DNA of 13,758 bases from NCBI GenBank assembly GCA_024280065.1, contig JAJRQX010000024.1:1-13758 (forward strand). The letters run 5' to 3'. The notes beneath the pieces were generated by a model. The model did no database searches. It was not told the DNA's origin and worked only from the letters and a program-made list of their open reading frames with translations. The position numbers and the translations under genes were made by a program. Below, piece after piece: positions 3,249 through 8,066 of this stretch. This DNA is from Aquificota bacterium (GTDB lineage Bacteria > Aquificota > Aquificia > Aquificales > Aquificaceae). Positions within the stretch are counted from its first letter, which is position 1, and each line of letters begins with the position of its first letter.

Positions 3249-4007
3249 ATGGCAGGGAAGGTGATCTTTGACTCTCCTGATCACAAGGTATTCCTCTTTG
3301 AGGAACTGACGCCCGCGAGTGCGATTCAGGCTAACCAGTACCTCATAATTCATAAGGACGAGGCGATGCTCCTTGACCCGGGCGGTCACAAGGTCCAGTC
3401 CAGGCTATTTACGGACATATCCGTTCTCATACCACCCAAGCAGATAAGGTATATATTCCTCTCCCACCAGGACCCGGACATAGTGGCGAGTATAAACTAC
3501 TGGCTCATGACGACGGATGCGGAAGCGATAATATCCAAACTCTGGACGAGGTTCATACCCCACTTCGGTCTGGACTCTAAGCTGGAAGGCAGAGTGATTC
3601 CCGTAAACGACAGGGGTACCAGGATCACCCTCGGAGGGGATTGTGAGCTACTCATAATCCCGGCCCATTTCCTCCACTCTCCGGGGAACTTTCAGGTTTA
3701 CGATCCTGTGTCGAAGATACTCTTCTCGGGGGACTTGGGAGCCTCCCTGGGGCAGGATTACTTCTTCGTTGAGGACTTTGAGAGCCACGTAAAGTATATG
3801 GAAAGCTTCCACAAGAGATACATGGCCTCGGGAAAGATTCTAAAGCTGTGGCTCAAGATGGTCCGTCAGCTTGACATAGAAACGGTGGCACCCCAGCACG
3901 GGGCGGTTTTCAAGGGTAAGAGCCTGGTGGAGAAGCTGTTCTCCTGGCTTGAGAACCTTGAATGCGGAGTTGATATAATGAGTGAGGAGAACTATACTTT
4001 ACCATGA
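3249..4007 (+). CDS. MBL-fold di-iron protein, ODP / flavodiiron-like
   Basis: A 252-residue metallo-beta-lactamase-fold protein. SHQDPDI (72-78) corresponds to the HxExD metal loop of flavodiiron proteins; the remaining ligands appear as H140 and/or H143 in PAHFLHSPGNF, D162 in FSGDLGA and H217 in APQHGAVF. Phe-rich PGNFQVYDP and the SGDLG turn are typical of the ODP (oxygen-binding di-iron) group, which can bind or reduce O2 or NO. There is no fused flavodoxin domain, so it would need a separate electron donor or act as a sensor or binder. The start is set by AGGGGGT at 3237-3243. Its TGA overlaps the Sco1-like ATG (ATGA), so the two are translationally coupled. The family call is firm; the reaction is inferred. 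Confidence 0.82.
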   Translation: MAGKVIFDSPDHKVFLFEELTPASAIQANQYLIIHKDEAMLLDPGGHKVQSRLFTDISVLIPPKQIRYIFLSHQDPDIVASINYWLMTTDAEAIISKLWTRFIPHFGLDSKLEGRVIPVNDRGTRITLGGDCELLIIPAHFLHSPGNFQVYDPVSKILFSGDLGASLGQDYFFVEDFESHVKYMESFHKRYMASGKILKLWLKMVRQLDIETVAPQHGAVFKGKSLVEKLFSWLENLECGVDIMSEENYTLP

Positions 4008-4585
4008 TGAGGCTGATCGGGTTAGTAATCACTTCCTTGCTCAGCTTGTTTCTTCTGTCCTGCGAGGAGAAGTATAACGGTATAGTCAAGGGAGACCCTG
4101 CGGAGGACTTCTGTCTCAGTGGCTGGAAAGATGGCAAGGAGACTGAGGTCTGTCTAAGTGATTTCAGGGGCAAGGTGGTTCTCATCTTCTTCGGCTACAC
4201 CCACTGCCCCGATGTATGCCCTATGGCGATGGAGGTTCTTAAGAAGACGGTAAATCTGCTCGCGGAGGAGGAGAGGAAGAGGGTTCAGGTGATCTTCATA
4301 AGCGTGGACCCGGACAGGGACACGCCGGAGGTGGCACAGAAGTATGCTGAGTTCTTTAATCCGAGCTTCTTGGGTCTCACGGGTTCCCACGAGAAGCTGA
4401 AGCAGGTAACGAAGGCCTACTTCGCCTTCTACAGGAAAGTGGAGTCTCAGGATAAGGAAAACTACCTCGTGGACCACACCGGCTACATATACCTTATAGA
4501 CCCTGACGGCATCCTCAAGCTCATTTACCCATCACGCAGGCAGAAGCCGGAGCTCATAGCGGAGGACGTAAAGAGGATCCTCTGA
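4004..4585 (+). CDS. Sco1/SenC-family copper-binding lipoprotein
   Basis: A 193-residue Sco protein. Residues 1-19 are a lipoprotein signal with lipobox LLSC (Cys20), which would anchor it on the outer face of the inner membrane. The thioredoxin fold follows: FGYTHCPDVCP carries the CxxxC copper motif (Cys68, Cys72), ISVDPDRDTPE is a family signature, and His158 in VDHTGYIYLIDPDG is the third Cu ligand. All three ligands are present. Sco proteins deliver copper to, or reduce, the CuA site of cytochrome c oxidase. The start may be either of two adjacent ATGs (4004 or 4007); the first overlaps the upstream TGA. A PCu(A)C chaperone follows directly, the partner expected for this job. Confidence 0.95.
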   Translation: MMRLIGLVITSLLSLFLLSCEEKYNGIVKGDPAEDFCLSGWKDGKETEVCLSDFRGKVVLIFFGYTHCPDVCPMAMEVLKKTVNLLAEEERKRVQVIFISVDPDRDTPEVAQKYAEFFNPSFLGLTGSHEKLKQVTKAYFAFYRKVESQDKENYLVDHTGYIYLIDPDGILKLIYPSRRQKPELIAEDVKRIL

Positions 4586-4593
4586 AAGGAGGT
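4585..4593 (+). promoter_or_regulatory. Shine-Dalgarno site (AAAGGAGGT) deciding the PCu(A)C start
   Basis: A near-perfect ribosome-binding site begins in the last base of the Sco1-like stop codon. It lies 4 bases before the ATG at 4598 and overlaps an in-frame GTG at 4592, which rules out that GTG as the start. Confidence 0.85.
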
Positions 4594-4597
4594 GGTC

Positions 4598-5014
4598 ATG
4601 CTTTACCTGATAGTCCTTCTGCTTTCATTTACCCTTGGCACAGCAGGACCCAGGATAGTGGTTGAGGACCCTTGGGTAAGGGATGTACCTCCGGTGGCCA
4701 AAACCACAGCAGCCTTCATGAAGATAAGGAACACAGGCAACGAGGAGGATACCCTCATAGGTGTGGTGTCCGATGTAGCGGAGATGGCCGAGATCCACGA
4801 GACCGTAACTGACGACGGCATCGTGAGGATGAGGAGGATAGAGTCCCTATCCGTACCCCCCGGTTCAACCGTTATCCTGAAACCTATGGGGAAGCACATA
4901 ATGCTCATGGGCCTGAAGGAGAGCCTGAAGAAGGTGGGCAAGGTCAGGATAGTCCTCATATTCAGAAAGAGCGGTAGGATAGTGGTTGAGGCCCCTGTAA
5001 GAAGGCTTGAGTGA
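4598..5014 (+). CDS. PCu(A)C-type periplasmic copper chaperone
   Basis: A protein of 138 residues with a signal peptide (about 1-16) and a small beta-barrel domain. The family's copper site H-x10-M-x21-H-x-M is complete: His67, Met78, His100 and Met102. These proteins bind Cu(I) in the periplasm and pass it to Sco or directly to the CuA centre of cytochrome oxidase subunit II. WVRDVPPVAKTTAAFMKIRN is the usual N-terminal signature. The start is the ATG at 4598, because a full AAAGGAGGT lies just before it and covers the alternative GTG at 4592. It sits 12 bases after the Sco1-like gene, and its stop overlaps a possible GTG start of the next gene. Confidence 0.95.
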   Translation: MLYLIVLLLSFTLGTAGPRIVVEDPWVRDVPPVAKTTAAFMKIRNTGNEEDTLIGVVSDVAEMAEIHETVTDDGIVRMRRIESLSVPPGSTVILKPMGKHIMLMGLKESLKKVGKVRIVLIFRKSGRIVVEAPVRRLE

Positions 5015-6023: not shown

Positions 6024-7370
6024 ATGGGCATAAGGAAGGTCAGGACGGATCTGACCGTCAGGCTTGACTCCCTGCCGTGGACTTCCTTTCACACGCGTTT
6101 CCTTATAGCTCTCGGTGTCACATGGGTACTGGACGCCTTTGAGGTGGTGATAGTGGGCAACGTTCTCGGGAGCATGAAGGAGTCTCTCGGGCTGACTCCC
6201 GTTCAGGGTTCCTTACTTGTGAGCGGTTTTCTCATAGGTGCTATCCTCGGCTCCTTCCTGTTCGGATACCTGGCTGACAGATACGGCAGGAAGAAGGTTT
6301 TCATAATCACACTGCTGACCTACTCCTTGGGGACTTTCCTCACAGGCTTTGCCTGGGACTTCTGGAGTGCCTTTATACTAAGGGTAATAGCTGGAGCGGG
6401 TATAGGCGGTGAGTTCGCAGCCATACACTCCGCGATAGACGAGTTCGTACCCTCAAGGCACAGAGGGAAGGTGGACGGCCTGGTGGTAGCTTCCTGGAAC
6501 GTGGGTAGCATATTCGCATCCCTCACAGCCCTCATCCTGCTCAAGAACATACCCCAGGAACTCGCCTGGAGGTTCGCCTTCTTCCTCGGAGGGATAATAG
6601 CTGTTTTTGTGGTTTACGTGAGAAGGCACGTACCGGAATCCCCGAGGTGGCTTCTCTCAAAGGGTATGTATGAGGAGGCGGAGCGTATAGTAAGGAGTTT
6701 AGAAGGACATGTGAACGTAAAACCCGATGGCAGACCCGTTGAGGTCCCTGTATTTGAAGAGGGCCTCCTTGAAGGTTTAAAAGTTCTGATCACAAGATAC
6801 AGGTGGCGGTTCCTCTTCTCAACCTCCGTCAGCTTCACTATACTCACCACCTACTACGGAATGATAACTCTAATACCGGTAAGCTTGGCTCCGGCCTTAG
6901 GCATAGACCAGAGTCAGGTTCCTATCATCTTCCTTATGGGCAGCGTGGGGGGTCTCGTGGGTGGTGTGATAGTGGCCTTTCTGGCGGACTCTGTAGGGAG
7001 AAAGCCCACCGGTGTGGGCATCCTGGTCCTGTCCGTTCTGTCCACACTGGCACTGATATACACGGATAACTTCTACCCGGCGTTCGCCTTATACTCTTTT
7101 ACCGCCTTCTCTTTCGCATGCGTTGGCTACGTCACGGCTATGGAGATATTTCCCTCATACATAAGGGCCACCGCCATAGGCCTGATATCCATAGTTGGCA
7201 GGATAGGAGGGACCTTGGCCCCTCCTTTTGTGATAAGCCTGTCCGAGGTAAGTTACCAGATGGGTCTTTACGGCGTGTTGGGTTTCTGGGTGTTCGGTCT
7301 TATATCCTTTACCCTCTGGAGTATCTTCGGTGTTGAGGCGAGCGGAAGGTCCATAGAGGAGATCACTTGA
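6024..7370 (+). CDS. MFS transporter (sugar/organic-acid porter type)
   Basis: A 448-residue polytopic protein with about 12 hydrophobic segments in two bundles. The TM2-TM3 loop carries the MFS signature GYLADRYGRKKV (81-92), repeated in degenerate form as ADSVGRKPTG (321-330) in the second half. PESPRWLLSKG (204-214) ahead of the central loop and PSYIRATAIG (387-396) are typical of the sugar-porter and metabolite:H+ symporter branches, as is the acidic DAFE (37-40) in TM1. It is an inner-membrane secondary transporter; candidate substrates are organic acids or aromatic acids, but nothing here fixes them. The ATG has no Shine-Dalgarno sequence, and a -10-like TATATT sits 10 bases upstream. 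The gene stands alone, and its TGA lies inside the -35 of the candidate promoter downstream. Confidence 0.9.
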   Translation: MGIRKVRTDLTVRLDSLPWTSFHTRFLIALGVTWVLDAFEVVIVGNVLGSMKESLGLTPVQGSLLVSGFLIGAILGSFLFGYLADRYGRKKVFIITLLTYSLGTFLTGFAWDFWSAFILRVIAGAGIGGEFAAIHSAIDEFVPSRHRGKVDGLVVASWNVGSIFASLTALILLKNIPQELAWRFAFFLGGIIAVFVVYVRRHVPESPRWLLSKGMYEEAERIVRSLEGHVNVKPDGRPVEVPVFEEGLLEGLKVLITRYRWRFLFSTSVSFTILTTYYGMITLIPVSLAPALGIDQSQVPIIFLMGSVGGLVGGVIVAFLADSVGRKPTGVGILVLSVLSTLALIYTDNFYPAFALYSFTAFSFACVGYVTAMEIFPSYIRATAIGLISIVGRIGGTLAPPFVISLSEVSYQMGLYGVLGFWVFGLISFTLWSIFGVEASGRSIEEIT

Positions 7371-7395
7371 CAGGGGATCTATAGACTGTTATATT
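7367..7395 (+). promoter_or_regulatory. Strong sigma70-type promoter in the convergent gap
   Basis: TTGACA (7367-7372), a 17-base spacer, and TATATT (7390-7395) preceded by TGT (7387-7389) give a consensus -35, the ideal spacing, an extended -10 and a 5/6 -10. The first four bases of the -35 include the MFS stop codon. It is the best promoter match I found in the window. It reads into no ORF, only into a C-rich hairpin and a terminator. Confidence 0.6.
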
Positions 7396-7421
7396 ATTTT
7401 ACAGATTTAGGTTGAGAAACT

Positions 7422-7439
7422 CCCTCCCCCTCCCTCCCC
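7422..7439 (-). other. G-quadruplex motif (minus strand)
   Basis: The minus strand reads GGGGAGGGAGGGGGAGGG: four runs of at least three G separated by single A residues. Single-base loops are the pattern for the most stable parallel quadruplexes. It lies after the thymidylate kinase stop in that gene's transcript direction, and on the template strand for the MFS or sRNA transcript, where it could pause polymerase. The plus strand is the matching C-rich tract of the candidate sRNA loop. Confidence 0.75.
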
Positions 7440-7449
7440 AAGAGTTTTT

Positions 7450-7480
7450 GCCCCTCCGCCCGGAGGGGCCTTTCTAATTT
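7450..7480 (+). terminator. Intrinsic terminator
   Basis: GCCCCTCCG (7450-7458) and CGGAGGGGC (7461-7469) form a 9-bp, almost all G-C stem; the loop is CC, or GCCC if the top pair opens. It is followed on the plus strand by CTTTCTAATTT, a moderate U tract. It ends plus-strand transcription from the MFS gene or the candidate sRNA. On the minus strand the stem is followed by AAAAACTC, so it is not a classic terminator for thymidylate kinase, though the following quadruplex motif may help there. Confidence 0.75.
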
Positions 7481-8066
7481 AAAATCCCATCCTCTTGGTG
7501 ATTATATCTTTGATGCGCTCAAACACATCCTCCTCAGGGACGGTGGCGTCCAGGACCACAACCCTCTTAGGGTTCTCCTTCGCTATTCTTAGGTAACCCT
7601 CCCTAACCTTCTTCAGGAATTCGGGGTTCTCAAAGCGGGTTCTTCTACTTAGCCTCTTCAGGGCTGTTTCCGGGTCAATGTCAAGGAGGAAGGTTAGGTC
7701 GGGTTCAAGGCCTCCCGTCGCCACCCTGTTCAGACTCTGTACAAGTTCGGGTTTAACACCCCTCCCGTAGCCCTGGTAGGCCAAGGTTGAGTCCGTAAAC
7801 CTGTCAAGGATGACCACATAGCCTTCTTCGGCGAGTTTCTTTATCTCCCTTACCAGCTCCACCCTGGAGGCCTCAAAGAGAAATAGCTCCGTTAGTGGTT
7901 CAAGCTCGCGGTTTATGAGTATCTCCCTGAGCAGATCTCCGACCTCCGTTCCGCCGGGCTCCTTCTTTAAAACTACTTTAAATCCCCTCCTCTCAAGGAA
8001 GTTCTTTAACTTAAGAGCCTGGGTGGTCTTCCCCGATCCGTCAATACCTTCAAAAGTTATGATCAT
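7479..8066 (-). CDS. tmk: Thymidylate kinase (dTMP kinase)
   Basis: A 195-residue enzyme phosphorylating dTMP to dTDP with ATP, in dTTP synthesis in the cytoplasm. All family motifs are seen: P-loop GIDGSGKTT (7-15), EPGGT (36-40), DRF (88-90) followed by TDSTLAYQGYGRG (91-103) for dTMP binding, and the Arg-rich lid RLSRRTRFENPEF (138-150). The P-loop has no Arg and the lid does, which is the bacterial (type II) arrangement. The length is normal. It follows the sulfite-oxidase-like gene by 12 bp. There is no Shine-Dalgarno sequence; the 18 bases TGATATAATTCCTGTATG run from the upstream stop through a perfect TATAAT to the start, so it probably has its own leaderless promoter. Confidence 0.97.
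   Translation of the reverse strand: MIITFEGIDGSGKTTQALKLKNFLERRGFKVVLKKEPGGTEVGDLLREILINRELEPLTELFLFEASRVELVREIKKLAEEGYVVILDRFTDSTLAYQGYGRGVKPELVQSLNRVATGGLEPDLTFLLDIDPETALKRLSRRTRFENPEFLKKVREGYLRIAKENPKRVVVLDATVPEEDVFERIKDIITKRMGF

Follow-up and report, generated by a model that had tools for sequence, protein, structure and literature searches.

C-rich seeds that pair with ribosome-binding sites are characteristic of the small RNAs (sRNAs) RsaE/RoxS and IsrR of the Bacillota. In Xanthomonas, the C-rich motifs of the sRNA sX13 repress mRNAs that carry G-rich motifs near their start codons, according to the available part of the report on it (PMC3771888). The same part presents sX13 as a highly expressed and conserved sRNA with C-rich motifs, and the Aquificales sRNA presented here resembles it in kind, with no sequence homology claimed. 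However, sX13 is described there as 115 nt long, with three stem-loops and short 4C/5C motifs in loops, whereas in the Aquificales sRNA there is a single C/U tract, 20-25 nt long, and upstream stems are not conserved. RepG of Helicobacter pylori is likewise an sRNA, directed at a repeat of G in the leader of an mRNA, but it belongs to another lineage, has another architecture, and has a known target, as far as the available part of PMC8295292 goes. RsaE/RoxS and IsrR are the subject of PMC4409812 and PMC9410917. The comparison with them is one of descriptions; a scan of our DNA against Rfam gave no match at gathering score, and the best of nine matches obtained with two of the homologous copies (L142 and L186) at relaxed thresholds was whalefall-1, at 18.4 bits and E 0.43 against a gathering score of 37. 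In Aquifex aeolicus, Lechner et al. (2014) detected transcripts at two loci, n68 and n75, which the available part of their paper (PMC4227106) treats as two separate candidates, with regions of homology in 4/2 species for the first and 3/3 for the second, and to which it gives no family or function there. A search of the open-licence literature found no recognisable description of the family reported below.

The window analysed here, that is, the whole stretch of 13,758 nucleotides from an Aquificota bacterium (contig JAJRQX010000024.1), almost certainly contains an autonomous sRNA gene at positions 7367-7477, made up of a promoter, a C/U tract and a terminator. Its −35 box TTGACA (7367-7372) and −10 box TATATT (7390-7395) are on the plus strand, separated by 17 nt and with TG upstream of the −10 box. 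They match 11 of 12 consensus bases, which confirms the claim of a first-pass annotation that this near-consensus promoter is the best in the window: it is the sole 11/12 match, the next best having 10. The same annotation had noticed that the −35 box overlaps the end of the upstream neighbour, a transporter gene of the MFS type (6024-7370, plus strand; Pfam MFS_1 / Sugar_tr), and indeed its stop codon TGA (7368-7370) falls inside the box. On the far side, the gap is bounded by the stop codon (7479-7481) of the convergent thymidylate kinase gene tmk (7479-8066, minus strand; Pfam Thymidylate_kin). Both neighbouring reading frames lie outside the sRNA, and between them no open reading frame of at least 80 residues is listed, a frame of 21 codons being present.

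The predicted RNA is about 75 nt long (7403-7477, plus strand), with its start set 7 nt after the −10 box and with support from homologous copies. It contains a 20-nt tract of C and U only, CTCCCTCCCCCTCCCTCCCC (7420-7439), which is presumed to be the seed, a linker AAGAGTTTTT with a U run at its end (7440-7449), a terminator hairpin (7450-7469) with a 4-nt loop, and the tail CTTTCTAA (7470-7477). The terminator had been noted before with a stem of 9 bp; the terminator stands, and the stem has 8 bp. Taken from the single sequence alone, the case for the gene is modest. The window has 13 promoter matches against a mean of 8.3 in shuffled sequences, its 11 terminator-like sites are no excess over the 13.1 of shuffles, and the fold of the transcript is only marginally more stable than those of shuffles (z −1.36 in one test and −1.83 in another). 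Comparison with relatives raises the sRNA gene far above chance.

We searched for homologous copies in related genomes. A DNA search with window positions 7360-7485 matched 38 of 61 genomes at E ≤ 0.1, and the best matches (E ≤ 1e-4) were all within the window's own family, which we call Aquificaceae because one of its genomes (G019) is that of A. aeolicus. A covariance model, R1, was then built from 29 Aquificaceae copies and run on 136 genomes of the phylum. At E ≤ 1e-6 it matched 54 of the 64 Aquificaceae genomes, in 10 of 11 genera, and also 16 of at least 38 genomes of a family that had contributed no sequence to it and that we take to be Hydrogenothermaceae-like (f3; Persephonella marina, Sulfurihydrogenibium). 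This total comprises 23 genomes listed with and 15 listed without a match at 0.01, a further 15 genomes of unassigned family being unlisted. The window copy scored 96.2 bits (E 4.7e-26, full length) as one of the training sequences; among the A. aeolicus copies, that at n68, also in the training set, scored 76 bits, and that at n75, excluded from it, 63.3 bits. Of the ten Aquificaceae genomes without a match at E ≤ 1e-6, two have a copy truncated at the end of a contig (G009, G013), two are assemblies that also lack tmk (G008, G010), and six are unexplained, one of which (G068) is 98% complete. The homologues mostly occur once per genome and in varied contexts.

The copies of the Hydrogenothermaceae-like family have the promoter immediately before the tract and keep tract, stem and tail; the purine-rich leader seen in many Aquificaceae copies is absent. 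A second model, R2, was built partly from sequences of this family, and its consensus structure is degraded, the stem being shifted between families in the underlying alignment (A2). Because R2 includes such sequences, only the R1 figures count as independent evidence for this family. Two matches with a different tract and no good promoter (L255, L274) were left out of its counts. In another family, f5, matches to R1 and R2 were weak (about 20-26 bits), and three of the six inspected (L271, L311, L313) combine TTGACA-16-TATTAT with a C-rich tract and a GC stem, arranged in the proper order, from which we judge that they probably belong to the sRNA family. L271-L273 were kept out of the family counts. 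The elements L272 and L273 of f5, each a C-rich stretch with a hairpin, follow closely on a tRNA-Glu gene and lack a good promoter of their own; they may be a tRNA-linked relative or due to chance. In f2, six listed genomes gave no R2 match at 0.001, and five had only weak R1 matches.

Conservation among the Aquificaceae copies is confined to the functional parts of the gene and ends at its edges. In 22 copies, a set that leaves out five with insertions or deletions (L168, L173, L179, L180, L182), mean pairwise identity reached 97% for the −35 box, 96% for the tract, 87% for the tail, 77% for stem and loop and 75% for the linker; the leader stood at 54%, the spacer at 34%, the 40 nt preceding the −35 box at 30%, and the sequence downstream of the tail at 32% and 28%. 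When all 29 rows of the Aquificaceae alignment (A1) were used and gaps counted as mismatches, the values were 51% for the leader, 93% for the tract, 71% for the linker, 74% for stem and loop, and 97% for the tail. A core beginning with AAACTCCCTCC is invariant or nearly so in the 29 copies. The terminator stem has eight pairs, none of them broken in any of the 29, and six of the eight show two-sided, compensatory changes. Relatives that keep the terminator alone, which the first-pass annotation would have counted against an sRNA, were not what we found; on the contrary, few parts are as conserved as the −35 box and the C tract.

The promoter was assessed in all copies with sufficient upstream sequence, which excluded L175, L176, L178, L181 and L183 and, from the count of 37 Aquificaceae copies, also L177. 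Exact TTGACA is found in 36 of these 37, and 33 have a promoter with 11-12 of 12 consensus bases, compared with 6 of 1480 shuffled upstream regions. The corresponding figures for the Hydrogenothermaceae-like family are 13 of 19 copies, one of which (L253) belongs to a second type (see below), and 5 of 760 shuffles. Some latitude is seen in size and detail: the predicted RNA is 75-119 nt long among Aquificaceae copies, the C/U tract measures 20-25 nt, and the number and lengths of the C runs differ in Aquifex copies and in copies of the type found in G025, G032 and G069. The comparison thereby fixes the strand, promoter, tract and terminator of the gene.

We then compared the two A. aeolicus copies with published transcripts. 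R1 located them at C1:989739-989816 (plus strand) and C1:1168991-1169069 (minus strand), where they coincide with n68 (also called Aae-65; 989704-989840, plus) and n75 (1168974-1169071, minus) as given in Table 3 of Lechner et al., in the part available (PMC4227106). The coordinates of our genome can be used for this comparison since two reference RNAs agree in position: Rfam placed tmRNA at 1153498-1153844 and SRP RNA at 1303772-1303857 on contig 1 of G019, and that table has them at 1153499-1153856 and 1303758-1303875. The start of n68 predicted by the rule of 7 nt after the −10 box is 989704, identical with the published boundary, and that of n75 is 1169069, 2 nt from the published boundary on the 5′ side of the minus-strand RNA; both published values are boundaries of read clusters, not mapped starts. 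Together with the promoter counts, the agreement at n68 supports the independent sRNA that the first-pass annotation had proposed. According to the same source, n68 accounts for 476 of the 33,697 reads of the primary-enriched (+)-library and for 756 of the 25,816 of the (−)-library, and because its reads are not enriched in the former, its 5′ end is not demonstrated as primary. For n75 the numbers are 158 and 79. The published 3′ boundaries extend 24 nt (n68) and 17 nt (n75) past the predicted tails, for which we found no explanation.

The n75 promoter is weak (TTGCAA and TAAATT, 8 of 12), and none of five complete copies of the n75 type reaches 11 matches, a count that leaves out L261, which a contig end truncates. 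R1 gives at least two matches in each of the seven genomes that make up the Aquifex-like genus g4, some of them cut by contig ends. In Northern analysis, n75 gave signals from both strands and of sizes other than expected, and its authors left the polarity open, as reported in the available part of PMC4227106. The conserved terminator and tail would point to the minus strand for n75, without denying an antisense RNA. Hence n68 and n75 are paralogues of one conserved family, which is new.

Also new is that the Hydrogenothermaceae-like family carries further copies behind a palindrome. R2 gave a second match in many of its genomes, and we defined a second type by eye as the 14 fetched copies with a tract like GCATCCCCC, namely 13 of 20 fetched stretches and L253 (L296-L305, L307, L310, L315, L253). 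The palindrome ATGATNNNNATCAT is present upstream of 13 of the 14, centred 55-59 nt before the tract in 11 of them, and is found in none of 27 Aquificaceae copies and none of 18 first-type copies of the same family. Second-type copies have no TTGACA box. The 5-4-5 form of the palindrome resembles a CRP/FNR site.

The neighbourhood of the gene was inspected for 33 copies, of which 31 had a downstream gene in the fetched stretch (L161 and L177 had none and were left out). That gene is convergent in 17 copies and co-directional in 14. The convergent neighbours are tmk in 13, a DeoR/NosL-domain protein in three and a SpoU methylase in one; the co-directional ones are SfsA in eight, a Mem_trans permease in three, and PurD, an ABC transporter and another gene in one each, with Pfam names taken from one representative per cluster. 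Matches to tract and terminator persist where tmk is elsewhere, as in G024, with the copy at C1:312,236 and tmk at C1:1,140,629. Since the neighbours vary, the sRNA gene is not tied to one operon. The trans-acting role proposed in the first-pass annotation would follow from the changing neighbourhoods. Where tmk is linked, read-through would make the tmk message antisense to the sRNA, and in the window organism a message extended in this way would carry a G-quadruplex-type motif in its 3′ end. In the SfsA-linked copies (L156, L166, L167, L169-L172, L174) the SfsA frame starts 3-7 nt past the sRNA tail in six of eight, so near that the 3′ strand of the terminator stem may also serve as the SfsA ribosome-binding site.

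These neighbourhoods bear on several other explanations of the element. A cis-acting leader or attenuator of the next gene would suit the 14 of 31 copies in which that gene is co-directional, above all the eight in which it starts 3-7 nt past the tail, six of these being SfsA. It is highly improbable, however, for 17 of 31 copies, the window's included, are followed by a convergent gene, the C tract is equally conserved in them, and the following genes come from unrelated families. Still less credible is a terminator of the MFS gene joined to a chance promoter: the promoter does overlap the MFS stop codon, and read-through from that gene would end at the stem, but the same promoter and tract stand beside tmk, SfsA, PurD and other genes where no MFS gene is present. 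A translated product fares no better. The 21-residue frame of the window copy runs from TTG at 7412 to TAA at 7475, and both start codon and frame are intact in 19 of 37 Aquificaceae copies, but the other 18 lack one or the other, including 8 of 9 from Aquifex-like (g4) and g10 genomes, and the changes in the terminator are compensatory at the RNA level and, by eye, alter residues; we regard such a peptide as extremely improbable. The conserved object could also be the DNA itself, with transcription merely passing through a G-quadruplex-type motif on the opposite strand. The complement of the C tract (7422-7439, minus strand), GGGGAGGGAGGGGGAGGG, is the only motif of four G runs in the window, the plus strand having none. 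Promoter strand, U run, terminator and tail, all of which a quadruplex could do without, are nevertheless conserved in one orientation across contexts, and this makes the explanation quite improbable.

The structure of the RNA was examined by folding and by covariation. The first-pass annotation had described a hairpin, AAACTC/GAGTTT, that displays a 19-nt C-rich loop. This is indeed the predicted fold of the window's own copy, but as a conserved element it was rejected: 68.8% of alignment cells are paired against a shuffled mean of 69.1%, and no two-sided change is seen. Of the comparison among relatives that the annotation had suggested, promoter conservation and compensatory changes in the terminator stem were borne out, and the 19-nt loop proved not to be general. 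Many Aquificaceae copies have a purine-rich leader whose GGGAG is able to pair with the first CUCCC of the tract (76.7% of cells paired). This 5′ hairpin shows no two-sided change in the Aquificaceae alignment and is absent, by eye, from copies of the Hydrogenothermaceae-like family, and the window copy, with its short leader, lacks the pairing. We therefore keep it only as a putative trait of the Aquificaceae. The tract is predicted to be unpaired, on average, to 48% at 37 °C and 61% at 80 °C in the Aquificaceae and to 99% in the Hydrogenothermaceae-like family, which is consistent with a C-rich single-stranded seed, unpaired in the latter and about half unpaired in the former.

How might such an RNA work? 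A strong sigma-70-type promoter is predicted to give rise to an RNA of about 75 nt ended by the intrinsic terminator, and this RNA would act in trans. Its C tract would pair with G-rich, Shine-Dalgarno-like segments near start codons and block ribosome entry, with Hfq perhaps engaged on the U run. In many Aquificaceae copies, the purine-rich 5′ leader folded on the first C runs would first need to be displaced. This pairing is modelled on sX13 and RepG and on the conservation of the tract, and we are somewhat inclined to accept the autonomous sRNA gene together with this mechanism. Hfq was found in 58 of 61 genomes, and not in the window's own assembly, which is 79% complete. Two Hfq matches were obtained in 53 of the 61 genomes (usually one of 92-103 bits and one of 69-86 bits), which probably represent two paralogues; five genomes have one and three have none. 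A structure of A. aeolicus Hfq with U-rich RNA has been published (PMC5379935, available in part).

Predicted pairing was compared between start regions and gene interiors. Start regions pair better with the tract (means −10.4 and −10.6 versus −6.6 and −6.4 kcal/mol), in a sample of 106 genes of A. aeolicus and 130 of G007 that was selected for having a Shine-Dalgarno sequence and thus favours any C-rich RNA; shuffled C/U seeds pair about equally well with these start regions (means −10.3 and −10.1). The pattern GGGRGGGGN{3,9}ATG was rarer in 10 genomes than its reversed control (34 matches versus 49). Among 20 of the 34 places that were fetched, three begin frames of at least 150 residues (L317, PEBP; L318, activase; L334, another gene). 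The orthologue leaders of activase and PEBP were read, and neither gene was exceptional against background as a target. For activase the energies of the leaders range from −31.4 to −4.4, and values of −15.4 or better were obtained for 21.5% of the 130 genes sampled; the G-rich stretch of activase is, by eye, part of the upstream gene as well.

A search of 37 genomes with GGGAGGGGGAGGG, allowing one mismatch, gave many matches, and its reversed control was uninformative since the pattern reads the same backwards. Twenty places among the matches listed were fetched, 19 with GGGAGAGGGAGGG and one perfect (L235). In 12 of them the site is followed by AATCGAACCC or AATTGAACCC, seven lie in reading frames, and the remaining one is the perfect match. 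The 12 were rejected as targets, because ARAGORN calls a tRNA-SeC on the opposite strand in 10 and nothing in two, and an earlier reading of them as antisense to tRNA-Ser was dropped on the same calls. GGGAGAGGGAGGG thus recurs opposite tRNA-SeC genes (L218, L220, L222, L224-L227, L231-L233), which means that a C-rich stretch resembling the tract of the sRNA is present in tRNA-SeC itself. A likeness of the tail CCTTTCTAA to the 3′ end of 16S rRNA was also rejected, as the A. aeolicus 16S rRNA reads CACCTCCTTTATAAC.

The chief rival to mRNA pairing is a protein decoy, in which the C-rich single strand would bind a C- or pyrimidine-binding protein such as Rho, a protein with an S1, KH or cold-shock domain, or Hfq. 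A tract that is near-invariant over two families is what one conserved partner would lead us to expect, C-rich unstructured RNA is a preferred ligand of Rho, and the target searches yielded no specific mRNA. The number and lengths of C runs vary, however, in Aquifex copies and in those of the G025, G032 and G069 type, and on balance we consider a decoy unlikely.

The pairing model, which we prefer, invites a wider reading that we put forward as possible though doubtful. The family would be an ancient, class-wide regulator of translation in hyperthermophiles, with tandem CCUCCC, resembling anti-Shine-Dalgarno sequences, that competes with 16S rRNA for G-rich start sites or else engages one conserved protein partner. 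It would be near-identical throughout the Aquificaceae and the Hydrogenothermaceae-like family, traceable in a third family, and accompanied by paralogues under other promoters (n75 in Aquifex and the copy behind the CRP/FNR-like palindrome). Regulatory RNA in this deep-branching group of thermophiles is, to our knowledge, still poorly known. Two candidates that stood unconnected in 2014 become one kind of gene, whose strand is fixed, whose C tract is near-invariant and whose start fits the published transcript boundaries, and which is open to deletion, probing and cross-linking in cultivable species. The family also raises the question of how short RNA-RNA pairing could serve regulation at these growth temperatures; most sequences pair less strongly than a C-rich tract does. 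Elsewhere in the window, positions 3249-5014 hold, by eye, an MBL-fold reading frame followed by SCO1-like and PCuAC-like frames.
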